From an uncultured Odoribacter sp. (GTDB lineage: Bacteria; Bacteroidota; Bacteroidia; Bacteroidales; Marinifilaceae): 15,398 nucleotides of DNA. Positions 1,457 to 12,227 of the stretch are shown here, piece by piece. The notes beneath the pieces are model-generated. The model saw only the letters and a program-made list of their open reading frames with translations, did no database searches and was not told the DNA's origin. The stretch covers positions 1-15,398 of the forward strand of contig CAJKZL010000016.1 of assembly GCA_905204385.1 (NCBI GenBank). Reading direction: 5' to 3'. Numbering within the stretch: position 1 is the stretch's first letter; every line of letters begins with the position of its first letter. The position numbers and the translations under genes are program-made.

Positions 1457-2194
1457 TTAGTTATTAGGATTAGGAATTCGGTATAAGGGATCATTGCTTT
1501 CTAAATAATATTCATACATCGGGGTCAGGATATATCGATTTAAAAAACCTTGGTATGAGTATATAGTCAATAAATTTTTTGCTGTTCCTTCATCCAGATT
1601 CTCTCCCCATCTTTTCCTGATATCTTCATAAATCACCGGACTTAGTTCCTTACTTTGATGATAAAAATCGACAAATAAGATAAATTTCTCCTGATTATAT
1701 TCCCCTACTTTTGCTGCTTGCCACCAAACAGGGGCTTCGATATCCCTATTACTAAAAAATATCACACATTCCTTTACATCGGCAGGGGCATAATTCTCAT
1801 TCTCCACCAACTGTAAAGTCAACCTGTATTCTTTATTTTTTTCCAGGTTCGGTTTCTTAAAATCGATCGGAATAAAAGCTTTTAATGAATCTTTAGGCAT
1901 CCGATTTACATCCGGTAAATCATAATGCTCCCCTTTCCTGGCATTCGTATCCTCAACAATTTTCAATTTAAAAGCTTTATCTTGTGTTAAATCGACAAAT
2001 CCGATTAATTTTACTCCTACGTTTAAATCCACCTCTTTATCCAGAGTCAACCCGTACGTAAAGCGGAGCGTGTCATCGACGAAAAATAATTTGTCTTTGT
2101 CATTTGAATCATAGATCTTATAATCGGTATTTTCACAAGAAAAAATAGTAAAAACACCGAAGAAAAGCAATGAGTATAGAAATCCTTTTTTCAT
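1457..2194 (-). CDS. DUF4843 domain-containing lipoprotein
   Basis: This 245-residue protein has a lipoprotein signal ending in the lipobox IFSC (Cys20). The following ~210 residues resemble DUF4843 proteins: an early LFFVDDTLRFTYG strand, a VDLNVGVKLIGF strand, the phrase TNARKGEHYDLPD, then IPIDFKKPNLEKNKEYRL and LQLVENENY. These read like a Calx-beta or immunoglobulin-like sandwich. The C-terminal ~85 residues, starting IEAPVWWQ, are typical of the family too. The gene sits 12 bases after susD and 3 bases before the PKD-like lipoprotein, the usual order in FecR-controlled susCD loci without glycoside hydrolases. Its function is unknown; a surface accessory protein of the SusCD complex is the best inference. 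The stop is TAA at 1457-1459. Confidence 0.82.
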   Translation of the reverse strand: MKKGFLYSLLFFGVFTIFSCENTDYKIYDSNDKDKLFFVDDTLRFTYGLTLDKEVDLNVGVKLIGFVDLTQDKAFKLKIVEDTNARKGEHYDLPDVNRMPKDSLKAFIPIDFKKPNLEKNKEYRLTLQLVENENYAPADVKECVIFFSNRDIEAPVWWQAAKVGEYNQEKFILFVDFYHQSKELSPVIYEDIRKRWGENLDEGTAKNLLTIYSYQGFLNRYILTPMYEYYLESNDPLYRIPNPNN

Positions 2195-2206
2195 AATGAT
2201 TACGAA

Positions 2207-3643
2207 TTAATATCTGTATTCAATTTCATTTTCCGGAATAGGAAGTACATAAATATCATTGGAAGCTTTATAGGTTTTCCCACTCTTAGTTTCCAGAATA
2301 TCCTGATTGTATCTTTTCAGGGTGAAAAAATACTGTCCTTCACCAATCAATTCTTTTTTTCTTTCGCGGATCACCTGTTCCAGCGTGAGAGTAACTCCTT
2401 GCCGGTCGGCATAGGCGGTCAGTCCCCTGGAAACCATCACCTTATCGTAATACTTTATGGCCTCGTCGGGACGATCGATACTCAAATAATATTCTGTGAT
2501 AATGTAGTACAGTTCCGGTAAACGCAACATATTTATCCCTTTCACCCTGGATTCTTTCCGGCTTGAATAAGTCAGTTCATAGGTATCCAAGATCTTGATA
2601 CAGCGCATACCGCTAGCTTCTACCTGATTATAACTATTAAACCATTTATCGTAACGATAGTCGGTCCCTTCTTTATCCGCATTATAATCTTCATCGTGTT
2701 CAGCTTTCAGGAAAAGACAGGTAGGGCTTCCGGTTAAATAAAGTATCGATCTGACATCGGTATAGAAAGTCGAAGAGAAAAGTCCCCAGATCGTCTCTTT
2801 GGGCGAAAGAACCCCGTTCACCAAATCTTGTATCTCACTTTTATCCGCCAATTCGAAATATCCACAATCGAGAACTTTTTGCGCATATTCAGCAGCCGTT
2901 TTTAATTCCCCTTTCATCCAATATACACGGGCCAATATCCCCTGTATAGCATAAAGGTTCATGTGAATGGCCCGGTCCTTCAAAAACTCATTATTCTGCT
3001 GTTCAGCATCTTCGAAATACTCTCCATTTTTCAGCATAAGATCTTCAGCAGCTTTTAAATCTCCGATAATTCTTCCATAGGCAGCTTCAGCACTCAGGAA
3101 CGGACTGACTTCAAACGAATAGTTGTCTACATAAGGGATTCCCTGGGCATTCTGATTATTGACTATGTTTTCACTGAACAAACGCAGCAGATCGAAATGC
3201 ATAAATCCTCTCAGACCTAAACACTCCGCTTTATATACGTTATACAATGGAAGAGCATCTTCATCGTAGCCCTTCAGATTTTCCAGAATATTATTCACAT
3301 AAGAAATAGCCTTATACATTTTTTCCCAAATCCCGTCGACGGTAGGCCGCACCTGAGCGTCTTTGTATTCAAAGCTGCAAATTTTCAATGTGACATTCCC
3401 CGGATAATCGTGAAAGAAATACTGAGCCAGAACGTCATGGAAATTATAAGTCATAGTGGCCCCGTAATAGGAGGAAGTACCTAATGTAGAATATACGCCA
3501 TAAAGGGCATCTTCAAATCCCTCTGCGTTTTTAAAGAGTTCATTGTTTACCATCTCTCCCTCCGGACGTACATCCAGAAAACTATCACACGAATAACAGA
3601 GTATGAAGCAGAGAATCATCGATAAATATTTCATTTTTTTCAT
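2207..3643 (-). CDS. SusD/RagB family substrate-binding lipoprotein
   Basis: This is the surface-exposed partner of the SusC transporter, expected to form the lid that captures substrate over the barrel. The ATG at 3643 gives 478 residues: MKKMKYLSMILCF, lipobox CYSC (Cys19), then FLDVRPEGE, the classic N-terminal SusD segment. SusD-type helical repeats follow (LRGFMHFDLLRLF, NLYAIQGILARVYWMKGE), and the end LPIPENEIEYRY is family-typical. The length is normal. A TTG at 3655 directly abuts the susC stop and would add four residues. I prefer ATG 3643 because it gives a standard signal peptide, 12 bases after susC. It is intact although its susC partner carries two stop codons. The ligand cannot be told from sequence. 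Confidence 0.93.
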   Translation of the reverse strand: MKKMKYLSMILCFILCYSCDSFLDVRPEGEMVNNELFKNAEGFEDALYGVYSTLGTSSYYGATMTYNFHDVLAQYFFHDYPGNVTLKICSFEYKDAQVRPTVDGIWEKMYKAISYVNNILENLKGYDEDALPLYNVYKAECLGLRGFMHFDLLRLFSENIVNNQNAQGIPYVDNYSFEVSPFLSAEAAYGRIIGDLKAAEDLMLKNGEYFEDAEQQNNEFLKDRAIHMNLYAIQGILARVYWMKGELKTAAEYAQKVLDCGYFELADKSEIQDLVNGVLSPKETIWGLFSSTFYTDVRSILYLTGSPTCLFLKAEHDEDYNADKEGTDYRYDKWFNSYNQVEASGMRCIKILDTYELTYSSRKESRVKGINMLRLPELYYIITEYYLSIDRPDEAIKYYDKVMVSRGLTAYADRQGVTLTLEQVIRERKKELIGEGQYFFTLKRYNQDILETKSGKTYKASNDIYVLPIPENEIEYRY

Positions 3644-3655
3644 CGTGTATTGCAA

Positions 3656-6600
3656 TTAAAAGGTTGGACTGATCGTAAATGAGAATCCCCGGCTGAAAGG
3701 ATAAGAAGTTCCCCGCTCATATTTCACGGAAGAAAACCGTACGACATCGTTCATACCCGCTCCCATTCGTAAACGTTTAAAGCCAATTTTGTTTAACCAG
3801 GAACTCTTGAACTCATAGGCCAGTTCTATCCGGTTAATCTGTAATGTATTTTCATCCTCGACAAAACGGCTACTGTGATAATTGCTTCTCGATTCCGTAT
3901 CTGCAATATCCAGATAAGGGAAAAGGTCGTTCACTCCTTTCCATCTTTCGTCATATGCTCTTTGGTCGACATTATAACGAGGATCCACATTCTCCACGTT
4001 GGCAGAACGGGTAGAATTATAAATCTGTCCACCAAATTTATAAGTCATACTGATGTTTAGCGACCAGTTTTTATAATATAACATCGGGAACACCGAACCT
4101 TCGAGTTTAGGATTTTCATCCCCACACACCACTTTATCGTCGGTATTATATGTCAATGTATATTCTCCGTCTTTATTCATGAACACCTCCTTGCCATTAG
4201 CAGGGTTTATACCGGCAGAACGGACAGCATAAATAGCGGTGGTCGATTGTCCTTCTTTATATAATGTTTTCGGGCTTACCGAATTGGACCGGTTGGCAGC
4301 GTCATTAGAAGCAGCCAAGGCATTGCTAATCGCCAATATTTTATTTTTATTGTGAGCCCCGTTCAATTTCAAACTAAATCTCCAGTCGCCGGTTTGTAAC
4401 AGCACAGCCGCAATATCGAATTCAAATCCTCGATTCCGCTGTTTTCCCAGATTATTATTCACCTTACTTTCACCGATAGAGGGCGGAATCGTCTGATCGA
4501 TCAATAAATCATCCGTCGTTTTAACATAATAGTCAAAAGTCATGCTCAACCGGTTATGAAATAAATCTGCATTCAAACCGATATTATTGGTCTTGGTGGT
4601 CTGCCACGTCAAATCTTTATTTCCCATCTGTTTGGGAATGGCCCCCATGCCATGCAAATAATAATGATCCTGACTATAGGTGTATGTCGTAATTGCCTGA
4701 TAAGAAGGGAAAGTAATATTTCCCGTCACTCCGTAAGAATAACGCAGGCGCAAAGTATTCAACCATTCTCTCTGTATAAAAGATTCATTGTGAATATTCC
4801 AGCCTGCTCCTACAGACCAAAAGGGAGCATAACGATTGTTAGCACCGAATTGTGAAGAACCGGAACGCCGGATAGCACCGTCCACAAAATATTTGTTCTG
4901 CAAGATAAAGTTCAGGTTAGCGAAAAAACCTGCCCGGGTGGTCAACTTCTGACTACCGTTCGGATGAGCATCTTCCTGATAGGTGATCGCATATTGAGGA
5001 GAATGGAGTCCAGGCTTTAAAAAACCCGTCGCTAAAAAACTCTGTGACCGGGCATCGTCTTTATAAATATCCCCCCCTAAATAAAGGCTCAACAAGTTAT
5101 TACTGCCGATATGTCGGTTATAGCTGACCACAAAATTTCCGCTAAAATTCAATGATTTTTGATGATTTTCTGTCAATAATCCCTTTTTAGACAATTCTTC
5201 CTCCGTAAGATAGGAAGCAGAAGCCGGAGAAATGAAAATTTCCTGATCCGAATGATCGGACACAACAGACCCATTGGCAGTGAAATATAAGCCTTTCAGA
5301 ATATCCCAACGGATATTTACAGTGTTGGTAAAAGTATTCGCCGAAGTTTTATTGAAATTACCGGCTTTAGCTTCATACAAAGGATTATTTACGTCCCAGG
5401 ATAGTTTTTTCAATAAAGTCCCGCTTTCATCATACGGCGTATCGTAAGGATTCAGGGAAACATAACTGGAAAAAGTACCGTAAGGACTATCCTGTGATTT
5501 AACGGAAGAATAATTACTTTGATAAGATACGGTCAACTTATCGGCCACATGATAGGCTAAAAACAAGCTAACCCCATAAGTATTCCGGTAGTCATCCTAC
5601 ATCACCCCTTATACATTTCTTATATTGGCATTCACCCGATAGGTCATATTATTTCCCTTCCCGCTGATACCGACAGAATTACCGATAGTATACCCTGTGC
5701 GCAGAGGTTTGGACATCCAGTTAGTATTTACCCCTTTAGAGATCAATAATTTTTTCCGGTTATATTCTTCCAGATCGTATTTATTTTCAAAATCATACAA
5801 ATTAGCCCGGCGTTCAAACTCCAGTTTATCTGCTGCATTCAGGTAATCATAAGTTGTCAGATCGGGAAAATCTACCGAACCATCCAAATTATAAGTCAGC
5901 CTTAACTTTTCATGTAAAATCTTTTTACGTTCGATCACAATCACTCCATTAGCAGCTTTCTCTCCATAAAGAGCAGAAGCCGAAGCATCTTTCAATACAT
6001 CGACCCGTTCGATTTCGTTAATATCCAGATCGTAGAGATCACGGAGAGTGATTTCAAGTCCGTCCAGAATGATGATCGGTTGATTAGGATTTACGTCTGC
6101 TTCGGTCGTTAAGGAGGAAGTTCCGCGGATAACAATTTCCGGAAGCCGGTTAGGGTTAGAACCAGCCTGATTATTTTCCACAATTTTAAGACCGGGAGTC
6201 AACATAGCCAAAGCACTGATCAGATTAGTATTAGAAACAGTCTTCAGCTCTTCGACAGTAAGTGTTTTCACCGAACCGGTAAAGCTATTCTTGTTCTTTG
6301 TAAAAAATCCGGTAACCACAACATCGTCCAGGGTGGTTCGCGCCTCCTGCATCGTTACCTGATAAACGGTTTGAGCAGGATCCACTTTTACTTCAGCATT
6401 TTCCATGCCTATGAACGAAAATACCAGGAAAATTCCCTCCGTTGAAGCGATATCTAACTTAAATTTACCATCGGCATCTGTCGAAACCCCGATCGACGTC
6501 CCTTTGATAATAACACTCACACCGGGCAAGGGCTGACCAGAAGCATCTTTCACTTGTCCGGTAAGGGTGGTCTTCTGTTGTTGAGTCAGGGTCGTCGCTT

Positions 6601-6946
6601 TTTTTATAAAAACAATATCGTCTTTGACTTCATAGATCAACCCCGTCCCTTGTAATAAAGAATGGAGAACTTCACCGACTTCTGCATTTTCCATTTTTAC
6701 CCGGGAAACTGTAATATGATTTACATCCCCGGAAGAATATAGAAAACGATACTTACTCTGAGCCTGAATAATCGTAAATACATTCTTTAGATTCTCTTTA
6801 CGTATCTCCACACTGATCTTACTTTGCGCATGGGTAACAGCCATTCCCGGAAGTAACACCAATAAAAAAAGGAAAGTAAGCAAATGCATGCGCACATTTT
6901 TTTTGATTTTCTCCTGCAGTGGAGGGGTTAATCGTTTTTTTTCCAT
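3656..6946 (-). pseudogene. SusC/RagA TonB-dependent transporter with STN domain, two in-frame stops
   Basis: The reading frame from ATG 6946 to TAA 3656-3658 spans 1096 codons, normal for an STN-bearing SusC, but codons 446 (TAA, 5609-5611) and 450 (TAG, 5597-5599) are stops. Domains in order: signal peptide (about 1-40, ending THAQS), STN/secretin-type signalling domain (about 45-115), carboxypeptidase-regulatory-like beta sandwich (about 127-200, LTGQVKDASGQPLPGVSV), TonB-box-like LDDVVVTGF (about 206), plug (to about 340, with ILDGLEI, VLKDASASALYG and NGVIVIE), then the barrel ending in FTISPTF with the terminal Phe of an outer-membrane barrel. Both halves are in one frame with no other lesion, so this is nonsense mutation, not frameshift. 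The first fragment would hold signal, STN and plug; the second would lack a signal peptide. A start at 6988 adds an unlikely 14-residue extension. The mutations may be recent or a sequencing error. Confidence 0.88.
5597..5611 (-). other. Paired in-frame stop codons in susC1
   Basis: On the coding strand the codons read GTA-TAA-GGG-GTG-ATG-TAG-GAT-GAC-TAC. The reading frame continues on both sides as typical SusC barrel sequence (YRVNANIRNV before, DDYRNTYGVS after). SusC proteins commonly have Gly-Val-Met-Lys here, so TAG sits where Lys (AAG) is expected. TAA could likewise derive from AAA. Each would be a single A-to-T change. The expected residues are from family memory, not an alignment. 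Confidence 0.85.
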
Positions 6947-6974
6947 AATTTTGTAATACATTAAATGATTAAAT

Positions 6975-7025
6975 GCTTGTTCGAGCAAGCTATTTTGAAG
7001 ATGGAGGATACGGCCAATATCCTCC
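6975..7025. other. Two stem-loops in the fecR-susC gap
   Basis: Just after the fecR stop lies a perfect 8-bp stem: GGAGGATA (7003-7010) pairs with TATCCTCC (7018-7025) around a 7-base loop. A second 6-bp stem lies at 6975-6990 (GCTTG pairing with CAAGC plus one G-T pair, loop TCGA). A T-run (7027-7032) follows the first stem only on the plus strand, so on the transcribed minus strand it is not a standard terminator. It may partly attenuate or stabilise the fecR-susC transcript; that is inference. The rest of the 84-base gap has no gene. Confidence 0.5.
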
Positions 7026-7030
7026 GTTTT

Positions 7031-8185
7031 TTAATATTGCGATACAGTAACCGTTTTACCCTGAATCGTAAACCGTACTTTTTCAAGATGTTCGATATAT
7101 TGCAGGAACTCGTGGATCTCCGCATAACGTTTCAGCTCCCCGGTAAATTGAATTTCCTTTAAATCGGAACAGGCATAAAAAATTTCCATATTATACCACC
7201 GCGACAAAGTATTCAGGATATCTTCCAGCGACTGGTCGATAAATATGAATTTACCGGAATGCCAGGCTGTATACAACGATGTATTCACTTCTTTCACCCT
7301 GAGTCGATGAGTAAGAAGGTCCACCCGTGACTGTTTCCCGGGCGTCAGCAGCACTTCCTGCCCGGAAGTCATCACCTTTACCGAACCGTATTCCAAGGTC
7401 GTCGATATCTCCTTTTCTTCAGGATAAGCACGGATACCGAAAGAAGTCCCCAATACCCGGACTACGTGTTCCCCGGACTCTATGATAAAGGGACTGGACT
7501 CGTTTTTAGCCACCTCGAAATAAGCTTCTCCTTTCAAAAAGACTTTCCTTGGACGACTATCGAATACAGGCGGGTATTTTAATTCAGTCTCGGCATTCAG
7601 CCATACTTTCGTTCCGTCGGATAATTTCAGTACATATTCTCCTCCGCGAGGGACATACAAAGTATGGTATTCGACCTGCCGTTCAGGTAATCGCTGATAT
7701 GCTAAGGTATCTTTAACGGCGATCATTCCAACGCCCAACGTTCCTGTTTTGGGAGTAACCGAATCGAGTAGAATCCTCTTTCCGTCAGGCAACGTCAACA
7801 CTGCACAGGGACTGCCGGGACGTATTGCAGAGGTCGCTATCGGAGTTACTTCAGGCTGACTCATCCTATTTACCCATATCGAGAGTGCGAAAACCAATGG
7901 AAATAAAACGGCTGCCACCCAACCGGTTCTTCTGAATAAACGAATCCTTCTTTCCCGTCGCATCCAACGACAAAATACCAGATATCCCGCTTGTTCGTCA
8001 TGTTCCGAATACATCATCCGGTAATTTTCCAAAGCCTTCCGGTCGGTTAACTTTTCGAATAAAGCCCGATGTTTCGCAGACTCATTCAACCATTCTTCCA
8101 ATTGCTTCTCCTCTTCAGAATTAGAAGAACCGGTCAATTTCGCCAGAATTAAGGAAATCAGCCGATACGGCGTATATTTTTCCAT
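7031..8185 (-). CDS. FecR family anti-sigma regulator
   Basis: This 384-residue inner-membrane regulator should bind the ECF sigma factor encoded divergently at 8627 and receive a signal from the STN domain of SusC. The N-terminal ~85 residues form the cytoplasmic anti-sigma part, with an EEEKQLEEWL helix typical of Bacteroidota FecR. One membrane segment lies at about 88-106 (GWVAAVLFPLVFALSIWV). The periplasmic FecR domain is at about 175-272, with YVPRGGEYVLKLSDGTKVWL, AYFEVAK and VLGTSFGIRAY. A C-terminal DUF4974 domain is at about 310-383 (GKFIFIDQSLEDILNTLSRWY). The length is usual. It is the first gene of the minus-strand operon. The ATG at 8185 is the first sensible start; the best promoter found is about 320 bases upstream, at 8502-8533. 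The gene is intact. Confidence 0.93.
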   Translation of the reverse strand: MEKYTPYRLISLILAKLTGSSNSEEEKQLEEWLNESAKHRALFEKLTDRKALENYRMMYSEHDEQAGYLVFCRWMRRERRIRLFRRTGWVAAVLFPLVFALSIWVNRMSQPEVTPIATSAIRPGSPCAVLTLPDGKRILLDSVTPKTGTLGVGMIAVKDTLAYQRLPERQVEYHTLYVPRGGEYVLKLSDGTKVWLNAETELKYPPVFDSRPRKVFLKGEAYFEVAKNESSPFIIESGEHVVRVLGTSFGIRAYPEEKEISTTLEYGSVKVMTSGQEVLLTPGKQSRVDLLTHRLRVKEVNTSLYTAWHSGKFIFIDQSLEDILNTLSRWYNMEIFYACSDLKEIQFTGELKRYAEIHEFLQYIEHLEKVRFTIQGKTVTVSQY

Positions 8186-8464
8186 TTTAATATTTTTTCA
8201 CCTAAGACACCACCCGATCAAAAAGTGGGTATCTTATTCCTAAAAAAATCTTAATCCGGATATTCGATGGTTTCCTAAAAAGGATTTGCCAAAATTCACC
8301 GATCTAAACTGGAAATTGAAAGAAGCCGTTTTGTAACACAACGTATCCCAGGCACCTAAAAAATTATGGTTTTGGAAGAAAAGAATATATGCCCAGGAAA
8401 ATATTGCCAGGCTAGCTCATTTAGCAAATGTTTACTCCTTTACAAAATATGAGTTTTTAACACA

Positions 8465-8598
8465 ACTAATAAAAACGATCGTTTCAAATTGTTAATCCTG
8501 ACAAAGGTATAATTTTTTTGAAATATTGACAATCATAAAGTTTACTTCCCAAAACAAACACTCTTTTTCTAACAGAAAAAACGATCGTTTTTATTAGT
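8465..8598. repeat. 20-bp perfect inverted repeat around a promoter segment (possible inverton)
   Basis: Left arm 8465-8484 and right arm 8579-8598 are exact reverse complements over 20 bases and enclose 94 bases (8485-8578). The inner 12 bases of each arm are themselves a perfect palindrome, AAACGATCGTTT, and the outer 8 bases (ACTAATAA on the left) point away from the segment. The arms diverge beyond the repeat on both sides. The enclosed DNA carries a promoter aimed at fecR. Inverted repeats of this size around promoters are the hallmark of invertible promoters in gut Bacteroidales. Paired operators for a looping repressor are the main alternative: the palindrome centres are 106 bp apart, close to ten helical turns. 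Confidence 0.8.
8502..8533 (-). promoter_or_regulatory. Bacteroidales-type promoter facing fecR
   Basis: On the minus strand the -7 box is TACCTTTG (8502-8509), an exact match to the Bacteroidota consensus TAnnTTTG. The -33 position reads ATTG (8530-8533), three of four bases of TTTG, with a 20-base spacer inside the usual 19-21 range. Transcription would begin near 8495 and run toward fecR. The element lies wholly inside the inverted-repeat segment; if that segment flipped, the -7 box would fall at about 8554-8561 on the plus strand and give the sigma gene a leader of roughly 60 bases. Confidence 0.55.
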
Positions 8599-8626
8599 AA
8601 TATCTGAATATTTATTTTGGCAGTGT

Positions 8627-9184
8627 ATGTCTGTTGAATTTGGCGAAGCCCATATACCATTATTAATTCAGGGAGATCCGGAAGCTTATCGACTGTTATA
8701 TAAGCATTTTTTCATCGCCTTATGTATTTTCGCCCGAAATATGGGAATAGGGAAAGAAGAAGCTGAAGATATCGTTCAGGAAATTTTTTGCCATATTTAT
8801 CGTGAAAATAGGTTGCCGCATCATCCCCATGCTTTCAAATCTTATCTTTATTCAGCAGTCCGTAACCGTTGCCTGAACCTGATCCGGGACACCCGACGCC
8901 GTAAAAACAACGAACTGATTTTCAGCAAAGATCAAGAGGTTACTACCTTTTGGGAGCAAATCGTAGAAAATGAAGTATATCGTGAATTACAGCTTTCATT
9001 AGACAAACTACCGGAGCAATGCCGAAAGATCTTTCAACGTTCGCTCAACGGAGATACCTCCGAAAAGATAGCAGACGAATTGCATCTTTCCATCGAGACA
9101 GTAAAAACACAACGTAAAAAGGCAAAAAAAATACTCCGTGAAAGATACCGAATATTGCAACGCTTATTCGGTATGTTGCTTTAA
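8627..9184 (+). CDS. ECF RNA polymerase sigma-70 factor
   Basis: This 185-residue protein has the two-domain plan of extracytoplasmic-function sigma factors. Region 2 is at about residues 18-90: EAYRLLYKHFF, then EEAEDIVQEIFCHIY and KSYLYSAVRNRCLNLIRD, which bind core polymerase and the -10 DNA. Region 4 is at about 120-172: LDKLPEQCRKIF, then a helix-turn-helix TSEKIADELHLSIETVKTQ, which reads the -35 element. It is divergent from fecR, the usual arrangement for a matched sigma/anti-sigma pair, and would drive the fecR-susCD operon when released. No good promoter faces it in the present orientation; TTATTTTG at 8612-8619 is one base off consensus but would start transcription at the start codon. 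The gene is intact and of usual length. Confidence 0.94.
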   Translation: MSVEFGEAHIPLLIQGDPEAYRLLYKHFFIALCIFARNMGIGKEEAEDIVQEIFCHIYRENRLPHHPHAFKSYLYSAVRNRCLNLIRDTRRRKNNELIFSKDQEVTTFWEQIVENEVYRELQLSLDKLPEQCRKIFQRSLNGDTSEKIADELHLSIETVKTQRKKAKKILRERYRILQRLFGMLL

Positions 9185-9230
9185 TAGCAAATGACTAAAA
9201 CCATTACCGGATTCTCCTGAACTTGTATAG

Positions 9231-9275
9231 ATCCCGTTATGGCCGGAAGCAAGTTTCTTCCGGCCATAACGGGAT
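9231..9275. terminator. 19-bp stem-loop between convergent genes
   Basis: Bases 9231-9249 pair perfectly with 9257-9275 over 19 bp, with the 7-base loop CAAGTTT. The stem is GC-rich in its upper part (GGCCGGAAG). It lies between the end of the sigma gene (plus strand) and the alkaline phosphatase stop at 9281 (minus strand), where a shared bidirectional terminator is expected. No clear T-run follows on either strand, so it departs from a textbook intrinsic terminator. Confidence 0.7.
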
Positions 9276-9280
9276 ATCCT

Positions 9281-10714
9281 TCATCGTGTCGTCACATATC
9301 CGCCTGCCTCGGCAATCTTACGGGGAATATCGGTATTATCCAGTTTTCCTTCAAAAAGCTGAGCCCCGGCCCCGATAGCAAATACAGGAACCACGCCGGC
9401 AGAATGACCTCCACTCGTCCAGCCTACCATAGCGATAGCATCCATGATGCGGATGGCTTTTGCGGCCAGGGGTTCGTTGGAGGAATAAAGGCTTTTTTCC
9501 AACTTCACATCACCGCTCTGGAAAGAATTACGATAAATTTCCTTCAGTTCTTTTTCCTGTTTTTCCGACAGTTTGAGGTCACTCCAGAAACCGAGATTTT
9601 CTGTCAGCAAAGTTTGCACTTCTTCCCAGCTTACCTTGTTATTCTTTTCTTTTCGCAGTTGTTTGATTTTGGCCGTCAGTTCTTCCAGGGAAGCTTTCTG
9701 GTGTTGTAAAGCTTTCAGATTGAGTTCATATTTTCCGGTACCTAAAGCTATTCCTCCTGTTTCGTGATCGGCGGTAATCACGATCAGCGTTTCGTCGGGA
9801 TGCTGCTGATAGAAATCCAGGGCACATTGTATGGCTTCGGCCATATCCACCACTTCATTGAAAGTAGTGGCCGCATCGTTATTGTGACAGGCCCAGTCGA
9901 TTTTTCCTCCTTCCACCATGAGAAAGAAACCGTTGTCATTGTCTTGACTCAAAAACCGGATAGCATGACAAGTGATCTGTGCCAAAGTCATATCACCGGG
10001 TTCCCGGTCGATAGCATAAGACAAGCTCGCTCTGTTCATGTCTTTCTTCTCGATCCAGACCACTTTAGCAGCCTCGGCGGATTTCGCCTCAAACTCTTCT
10101 ACCCCCCGGATAAGCATATAACCGGAGTCTCTCAGGATGTCATAGATAAGGGCTGCAGTAGAATCTTTTTTATTCGTCGGTTGCAAAAAGCCACCCCCGG
10201 CATACAAGTCAAAACCCGTTTTGGGAAGATCCGTAGCTATCTCATAGTACATATTCCGATCCGGCTGATGAGCATAAAAAGCAGCCGGAGTGGCATGGTC
10301 CACACTCACACTCGTAGTAATCCCTACTTTTTTGCCCGCTTTCTTTGCCTGCACTGCAACGCTGTAAAGAGGATCCCGGCGTAAGCTATCCATTCCGATG
10401 GTCCCGTTCTTGGTTTTTGTCCCTGTAGCCAAAGCCGTTCCTGCAGCAGCAGAACAAGTGACAGAGTTGTACTTCGAATAAGTAGTAGCAAAATTGGTTA
10501 CCGGAAATTGAGTAAAATTCAAAGGCTTAAGACCTATTCTACCCTCTTTTTCGGCCAGATACATTTCCGTCCCATTCACCTGATTCACCCCCATGCCGTC
10601 ACCGATAAAATAAAACACATACTTTGCTTTTTTCTCCTTCGGAGCCTGCTGGCATCCCGGTAATAATGCCACCGCCACTATCGCAAATGCCAAGAAATAA
10701 ATAATCCTCTTCAT
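9281..10714 (-). CDS. Alkaline phosphatase (PhoA family), lipoprotein
   Basis: This 477-residue enzyme should cleave phosphate monoesters outside the cytoplasm. A lipoprotein signal ends in LPGC (Cys21). Active-site motifs appear in family order: IGDGMG with metal ligand Asp39; the nucleophile motif VTCSAAAGTA with Ser88; SVDHATPAAF (about 137-146); MVEGGKIDWACHNND with Glu, Asp and His zinc ligands (about 270); ITADHETGG with Asp-His (about 315); and TSGGHSAG with the last His (about 435). A helical, charged ~100-residue insert separates the last two motifs. The residue before the nucleophile is Cys87, where E. coli PhoA has Asp101. The ATG at 10714 fits the signal peptide; the stop is TGA at 9281-9283. 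It lies 195 bases downstream of a second exported phosphatase gene on the same strand. Confidence 0.93.
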   Translation of the reverse strand: MKRIIYFLAFAIVAVALLPGCQQAPKEKKAKYVFYFIGDGMGVNQVNGTEMYLAEKEGRIGLKPLNFTQFPVTNFATTYSKYNSVTCSAAAGTALATGTKTKNGTIGMDSLRRDPLYSVAVQAKKAGKKVGITTSVSVDHATPAAFYAHQPDRNMYYEIATDLPKTGFDLYAGGGFLQPTNKKDSTAALIYDILRDSGYMLIRGVEEFEAKSAEAAKVVWIEKKDMNRASLSYAIDREPGDMTLAQITCHAIRFLSQDNDNGFFLMVEGGKIDWACHNNDAATTFNEVVDMAEAIQCALDFYQQHPDETLIVITADHETGGIALGTGKYELNLKALQHQKASLEELTAKIKQLRKEKNNKVSWEEVQTLLTENLGFWSDLKLSEKQEKELKEIYRNSFQSGDVKLEKSLYSSNEPLAAKAIRIMDAIAMVGWTSGGHSAGVVPVFAIGAGAQLFEGKLDNTDIPRKIAEAGGYVTTR

Positions 10715-12043: not shown

Positions 12044-12081
12044 ATCAGGTAAAAAATAAATTTTTTAAAGTCCAAAACCTA

Positions 12082-12208
12082 AAGTAACGATTAAAGATTA
12101 ACGATTAAAGATTAACGATCATGAGCGCCTTATGTTATGGTCGGATCGGAACCGAAGGTTCTGTTTATAAAGTCCCCGCAAGGGACCCACGGTCGTTAAT
12201 CGTTACTT
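12082..12208. repeat. 13-bp inverted repeat bounding a hairpin-rich intergenic block
   Basis: AAGTAACGATTAA at 12082-12094 is the exact reverse complement of 12196-12208. The 127-base unit between susD2 and the metallophosphoesterase gene could fold as one large structure with smaller hairpins inside. No target-site duplication is visible at its ends, so a mobile miniature element is not supported. No gene was seen in the whole 12044-12262 gap. Confidence 0.65.
12085..12119. repeat. Five perfect 7-base repeats
   Basis: TAACGAT and TAAAGAT alternate without error for five units (35 bases). In the register GATTAAA/GATTAAC the repeat resembles the heptads on the other side of the metallophosphoesterase gene, where the similar words (GATTATA, GATGAAA) are on the opposite strand. 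Confidence 0.85.
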
Positions 12209-12227
12209 AAGTGACCGAAAGGTCACT
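12147..12227. other. Series of three short hairpins
   Basis: Three compact stems lie in a row: 12147-12163 (core GAACC-GAA-GGTTC, 7 pairs with one G-T), 12172-12186 (GTCCC, loop CGCAA, GGGAC), and 12210-12227 (AGTGACC, loop GAAA, GGTCACT). The last has a GNRA-type loop on the plus strand. They may be parts of a structured RNA or leftover palindromic repeat units; the sequence alone does not decide. Confidence 0.5.

Follow-up and report, generated by a model that had tools for sequence, protein, structure and literature searches.

Is the DNA between an ECF sigma factor gene and its divergent fecR-type anti-sigma gene a promoter that inverts and, if so, which of the two genes would it serve? 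In gut Bacteroidales, invertible promoters are best known for switching surface structures on and off. The locus that raises this question lies in a stretch of 15,398 nucleotides from an uncultured Odoribacter sp. (the window, meaning the whole stretch analysed), for which a first-pass annotation had proposed a candidate invertible promoter between the two genes. We examined the window together with related genomes (labelled G) and loci in them (labelled L). The features of the window that matter for the argument are as follows.

1457 to 2194, minus strand: DUF4843 gene (Pfam).
2207 to 3655, minus strand: susD (Pfam).
3656 to 6988, minus strand: susC, as two same-frame ORFs (5609-6988 and 3656-5566) split by in-frame stops.
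7031 to 8185, minus strand: fecR-type anti-sigma gene (Pfam FecR and FecR_C), first gene of the transport operon.
8206 to 8231, minus strand: conserved motif TACCCACTTTTTN5GGTGGTGTC, 20 nt before the fecR start and kept from the sigma-fecR spacer of relatives.
8465 to 8484, plus strand: left arm, with core AAACGATCGTTT at 8473-8484 and central dinucleotide AT at 8478-8479.
8485 to 8578, no strand: segment between the arms, predicted to invert; 94 nt, with 106 bp between the core centres.
8502 to 8533, minus strand: predicted housekeeping-type promoter, TACCTTTG at 8509-8502 and ATTG at 8533-8530, facing fecR as sequenced.
8579 to 8598, minus strand: right arm, the exact reverse complement, with core at 8579-8590 and central AT at 8584-8585.
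8627 to 9184, plus strand: ECF sigma factor gene, divergent from fecR (Pfam Sigma70_r2/r4; TIGR02937).

Pfam matches thus place genes for sigma, FecR, SusC and SusD next to one another, the sigma gene and fecR being divergent and not in the same orientation. The first SusC piece contains Plug and CarbopepD_reg_2 domains; the second (3656-5566) lacks a Pfam match and was called susC from its frame and place. The susC frame is broken at 5566-5640 on the minus strand by two in-frame stops four codons apart, TAA at 5611-5609 and then TAG, and the counterpart in G001 is a single ORF. Of the eight further ORFs scanned, four gave no Pfam match; the others encode an alkaline phosphatase and a metallophosphatase, a second SusD and a second SusC barrel. 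Elsewhere in the window, a 22-bp inverted repeat, near-perfect and with a gap of 1 nt, lies at 9231-9275, between the sigma gene and a convergent alkaline phosphatase gene, and is possibly a terminator, with none flagged there by the terminator scan. Units resembling TAACGATTAAAGATTAACGAT are repeated at 12079-12211, together with inverted copies, adjoining the second susD.

As the first-pass annotation had described, a perfect 20-bp inverted repeat encloses 94 nt, with arms ACTAATAAAAACGATCGTTT at 8465-8484 and their exact reverse complement at 8579-8598. A chance origin of this repeat was ruled out by shuffling: perfect inverted repeats with a gap of 20-300 reached at most 15 bp when the window was dinucleotide-shuffled 200 times, and at most 14 bp when the intergenic region was shuffled 2000 times. 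The minus strand of the segment carries one full promoter box, TACCTTTG, preceded at 20 nt by ATTG (TTG at 8532-8530); the box conforms to the published TAnnTTTG consensus (PMC4747536, PMC12632263). This is the only 6/6 TAnnTTTG box on either strand in 8186-8640, which bears out the earlier claim of a sole consensus promoter in the divergent region, and its strand agrees with the orientation then proposed, towards fecR and the transport operon. The predicted promoter therefore lies within the segment and points outward through one arm. After inversion of 8485-8578 in silico the box occupies, again as anticipated, plus-strand positions 8554-8561; the sigma ATG (8627) follows 65 nt later. The distance from box to core is 17 nt in the window vs 9 nt in 15 of the 17 loci L157-L173. 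Among other signals, E. coli-type promoters were represented by one weak sigma-70 match in 8100-9300 vs a shuffle mean of 3.5, the scan around the element flagged no terminator-like sites, and Rfam gave no match in 7900-9300.

To place the arms in a site family, exact AAACGNNCGTTT pairs were sought in 56 genomes of the family, with the reversed pattern as a control. Pairs spaced 80-110, 111-141 and 180-210 bp apart occurred in 5, 12 and 3 of the 56 genomes, and control pairs in 0, 0 and 1. The 34 exact pairs found over the three spacing ranges are not all independent, as they include duplicate contigs from G046 and some homologous loci. In G046, L033 and L034 are by eye reverse complements of each other around the site. 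Across 393 genomes of the order, at a spacing of 100-130 bp, there were pairs in five genomes and control pairs in three; G044, G046 and G049 of these five belong to the family, and G207 and G313 lie outside it. Single arms with up to three mismatches matched in 39 of the 56 genomes, but the reversed control also matched widely, and the arm vs control counts relied upon are those of G048 (9 vs 0), G017 (9 vs 2) and G049 (5 vs 0). The left half, AATAAAAACGNNCGTTT, was counted against its control in ten genomes with up to one mismatch, with an excess in G048 (18/2), G049 (14/4) and G017 (17/5) and little or none in G001 (0/3), G043 (0/4), G015 (2/2), G016 (5/5), G044 (6/3), G045 (6/3) and G047 (2/0). 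The sequence ACTAATAAAAACGAACGTTT, which is the window arm with one central mismatch, is present at three places in G048.

A pattern in these pairs concerns the bases at the centre of the core. A serine recombinase requires equal overlap bases at its two sites, and a repressor does not. Central dinucleotides varied among the pairs (AT, TT, TC, AA, GA, TA) and were matched in the inverted sense in 33 of the 34; none of 20000 permutations reached 33 matched pairs (permuted mean 10.2). Where the first dinucleotide was non-palindromic (n=18 pairs), 17 matched inverted and none direct. This matching is the signature of a serine invertase. A full TAnnTTTG box lay between the cores in 26 of the 34 pairs, compared with a mean of 7.7 and a maximum of 15 when the inner segments were shuffled 300 times. 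Outside the near-palindromic core, inversion symmetry is weak: over windows of 40 bases, inverted identity exceeded direct identity in 23 of the 34, equalled it in 5 and fell below it in 6. The core alone is no proof of an invertible element, because the site pair L031/L036, which has the same core as the window, carries flanks repeated in the direct sense (24 inverted, 28 direct), and L039 (G313) is closer in the direct sense (22/36 vs 18 inverted). In the window, AAACGATCGTTT is exact in both arms, giving each the AAACG-NN-CGTTT-like core with two crossover bases that is typical of Mpi-class sites, and the central dinucleotides (AT/AT) are matched in the inverted sense, although they are uninformative on polarity. 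As AT is self-complementary, the window sites would lack polarity, and deletion of the segment is therefore also conceivable; related sites with an AT core do show inversion, despite a crossover without polarity. The outer GTC...GAC elements seen by eye near Butyricimonas-like invertases are absent from the window arms.

Segments of this kind were found in both orientations in related genomes. The clearest case is that of L162 (G010) and L164 (G011), which have the core AAACGATCGTTT: their flanks are 97 and 99% identical, and between them the segment is 99% identical when inverted and 61% in the same sense. By eye, both loci adjoin an ORF resembling UpxY, and the gene at L158:3349-3870, adjoining another such element, is UpxY (NF033644). 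The promoter of the invertase itself provides a further case: with manually placed site ends, the L043 (G012) segment is reversed relative to all six other loci compared. Relative to L042, its identity is 82% when inverted vs 56% in the same sense, the flanks being 80% and 78% alike. Seven of 272 locus comparisons passed the flank threshold, of which four were inverted, two were in the same sense and one was undecided; among the inverted ones, the comparisons of L158 with L161 and L165 are weak (67-69% vs 59-60%), and that of L160 with L162 is between two loci of one genome (G010). The inner segments between AAACGATCGTTT sites in L160 and L162 are 99% identical, and L161 is alike by eye, as if a switch cassette had been copied among these three loci of G010.

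Resolvase-family genes lie near such sites at L040:9236-9838 and L037:9670-10269. The L037 gene scored 305.0 against NCBIfam NF009949 (master DNA invertase Mpi family; cut-off 272), and the L040 gene, at 271.6, fell narrowly short of it. Proteins related to that of L040 were detected in 37 of the 56 genomes at E <=0.001 and in 21 at E <1e-50, the latter including G001, G015-G017 and G043-G049, among them the nearest relatives. In the window, as the first-pass annotation had stated, there is no recombinase among the 14 ORFs scanned (of 16 ORFs >=90 aa), and the invertase acting on its arms would be an Mpi-type serine invertase encoded elsewhere in the genome. Taken together, the site core in relatives, the matched dinucleotides, the adjacent Mpi-type genes and the two segment orientations back the proposed class, and the element in the window is, judged from sequence, very probably an Mpi-class invertible promoter.

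The relatives also indicate how the divergent arrangement may have arisen. Sigma P0001, 99% identical to the window sigma, was the closest one found. Among the genomes searched for sigma genes, the nearest ones were two from a MAG of an uncultured Odoribacter (identities of 71% and 57%) and one from a Butyricimonas (53%), in keeping with a host that resembles Odoribacter or Butyricimonas within the Bacteroidales. Genes for sigma and fecR are collinear in G001, L157, L167 and L173; in G001 they are followed collinearly by susC, susD and, after susD, a DUF4843-like gene, with sigma and fecR assigned by Pfam and the others by sequence resemblance. About 63 bp of the G001 sigma-fecR spacer are kept directly before the window fecR at 78% identity, suggesting that a turn or relocation of the sigma gene took place in the window lineage. 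A tblastn search of 8186-8626 for sigma or fecR coding remnants gave no match.

This retained spacer holds the 8206-8231 motif, which follows sigma in identical or close form in L001 (G001), L003, L024 and L012/L072 (G049), and more loosely in L002; in relatives, the gene downstream of the motif was identified by scan as fecR in G001 alone. Because the strict pattern comes from the window itself, its shuffle test there is not independent; a loose pattern also matched seven unrelated places. We take the motif as a candidate for a sigma-dependent promoter. A hairpin over 8206-8231 was considered as an RNA element and rejected, its z being -3.0 for the window as against -1.4 and -1.3 for two relatives.

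Site pairs with comparable placement occur elsewhere. They lie upstream of collinear sigma-fecR-susC genes (susC by sequence) in L157 (G008; 4018-4166), L167 (G011; 4033-4182) and L173 (G018; 4040-4176). These pairs are of the same site class and adjoin the same gene families as in the window, with an inner segment of 113-126 bp. L157 and L173 have an AT core and a full box that points away from sigma, and L167 has an AA core, with no full box found inside. Unlike in the window, their sigma and fecR genes share one orientation, and inversion would switch both together. Site pairs also lie between divergent genes, these identified by eye, in L116, L118 and L128; in L116 (G017; 5527-5916) the two divergent genes are SusC-like with similar starts, making another either-or switch possible there. 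A sigma gene as target and a divergent placement thus exist separately in relatives, and the window joins them on a sigma/anti-sigma pair.

Our preferred reading, which we consider probable, is that the element is an Mpi-class invertible promoter giving transcription of either fecR-susC-susD-DUF4843 or the ECF sigma gene. The either-or part follows from there being one full promoter box between divergent genes, and for the window we infer that its own copy flips, that the box is an active promoter and what would ensue. The invertase would cut at the central AT of both arms and turn the 106 bp between them. As sequenced, the promoter would read fecR-susC-susD-DUF4843 with a leader of about 310 nt, leaving sigma without a full box; after inversion it would read the ECF sigma gene with a leader of about 60 nt. 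The present orientation would give an open loop, producing receptor and anti-sigma but no sigma. In the flipped state other promoters would have to serve fecR-susCD. The conserved motif 20 nt ahead of fecR is a plausible one, and sigma could drive fecR-susCD from it, restoring signal-controlled expression. We tentatively propose, as a possibility and not as an expectation, that this heritable either-or switch rewires the circuit between the open loop and a loop closed through a retained sigma-dependent promoter, such that a clone would split into signal-blind and signal-responsive importers; owing to the palindromic crossover bases, a third state with the promoter deleted would also be possible.

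The most substantial rival accepts inversion and questions the either-or outcome: one of the two genes may have a constant promoter of its own, the flip merely tuning the other. The motif at 8206-8231 may be a separate sigma-dependent promoter before fecR, weak 5/6 boxes lie near the sigma start, and sigma promoters in relatives are not textbook ones, none of their boxes having TTG at the usual distance. Against this stand the lack of another 6/6 box in 8186-8640 and the finding that three of the four relatives' loci scanned (L001, L003 and L072, not L002) carry a box 17-49 nt before sigma, whereas the window as sequenced has none in the 200 nt before sigma. We regard this explanation as somewhat unlikely. 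A different account, which we rate as quite unlikely, is that the element was invertible in origin and is now locked, the invertase having been lost or become inactive on these arms, so that the promoter permanently serves fecR-susCD. It would fit the missing recombinase among the scanned ORFs and the interrupted susC, given which the locus may be decaying. The perfect arms, however, argue for maintained use, the invertase-like proteins at E <1e-50 extend to the nearest relatives, and a single Mpi of B. fragilis inverts 13 regions (PMC4747536).

A reading in which nothing inverts would take the palindromic arms as an operator pair for a dimeric repressor that loops DNA around the promoter. A 12-bp palindrome is indeed present in each arm, the spacing of the core centres (106 bp) corresponds to roughly ten helical turns, and the L036 pair has the same core between direct flanking repeats. 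At L036 (G009; 9701-9831) the core occurs twice in what appears by eye to be a phage-like region, with a toxin-antitoxin-like pair of small genes adjoining (by eye). Yet in the window identity runs 8 bp beyond the palindrome in the inverted sense, central bases vary among pairs while matching within them, for which a repressor has no need, segments between related pairs were found inverted, and invertase genes adjoin two such sites. We rate a repressor loop as very unlikely.

Tsr0667 of B. fragilis is a tyrosine recombinase with a different site consensus. The window arms are of the serine-invertase type, and a promoter of the Tsr0667 type is unlikely here because the arms strongly match serine-invertase sites. 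What the Tsr0667 susC/susD clusters would share with the window is phase variation of SusC/SusD outer-membrane proteins (PMC4747536). There is also a resemblance to the Mpi-dependent capsule promoters of B. fragilis and to those of B. intestinalis, in which a promoter likewise lies between short inverted repeats with a related core: the reported repeats are ARACGTTCGTN for Mpi of B. fragilis and GTTCGTTTAA for the B. intestinalis capsule promoters, and AAACGATCGTTT is one base off the Mpi consensus ARACGTTCGT given there (PMC8375218). As in Mpi systems, Mpi-type invertase genes lie near such sites in relatives of the window. The window differs from the capsule promoters in its core, AAACGATCGTTT, with a palindromic AT centre, in not being a capsule locus, in lying between two divergent genes of one regulatory pair, and in a segment of 94 nt vs 183-186 bp in B. 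intestinalis. Numerous inversion sites have been reported in Odoribacter splanchnicus (PMC5903667). The rule that crossover bases match within a pair makes it simple to look for Mpi-class switches by sequence in genomes not studied before.

An invertible promoter has also been linked to an ECF sigma gene before: with IVp-II of B. fragilis YCH46, expression of BF3407 rises in one combination of promoter orientations, and the passages of that paper available to us do not describe BF3407 as the alternative target of an invertible promoter between sigma and anti-sigma (PMC4747536). In the portions of the open-access full-text literature accessible to us, we found no description of an ECF sigma gene separated from its anti-sigma gene by an invertible promoter. 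The class of flipping element is thus a known one, and its divergent either-or placement on a sigma/anti-sigma pair looks to be the unusual part. If this reading is true, the promoter would choose between the sigma factor and its anti-sigma operon, and would thereby act on the mode of regulation as well as on expression.
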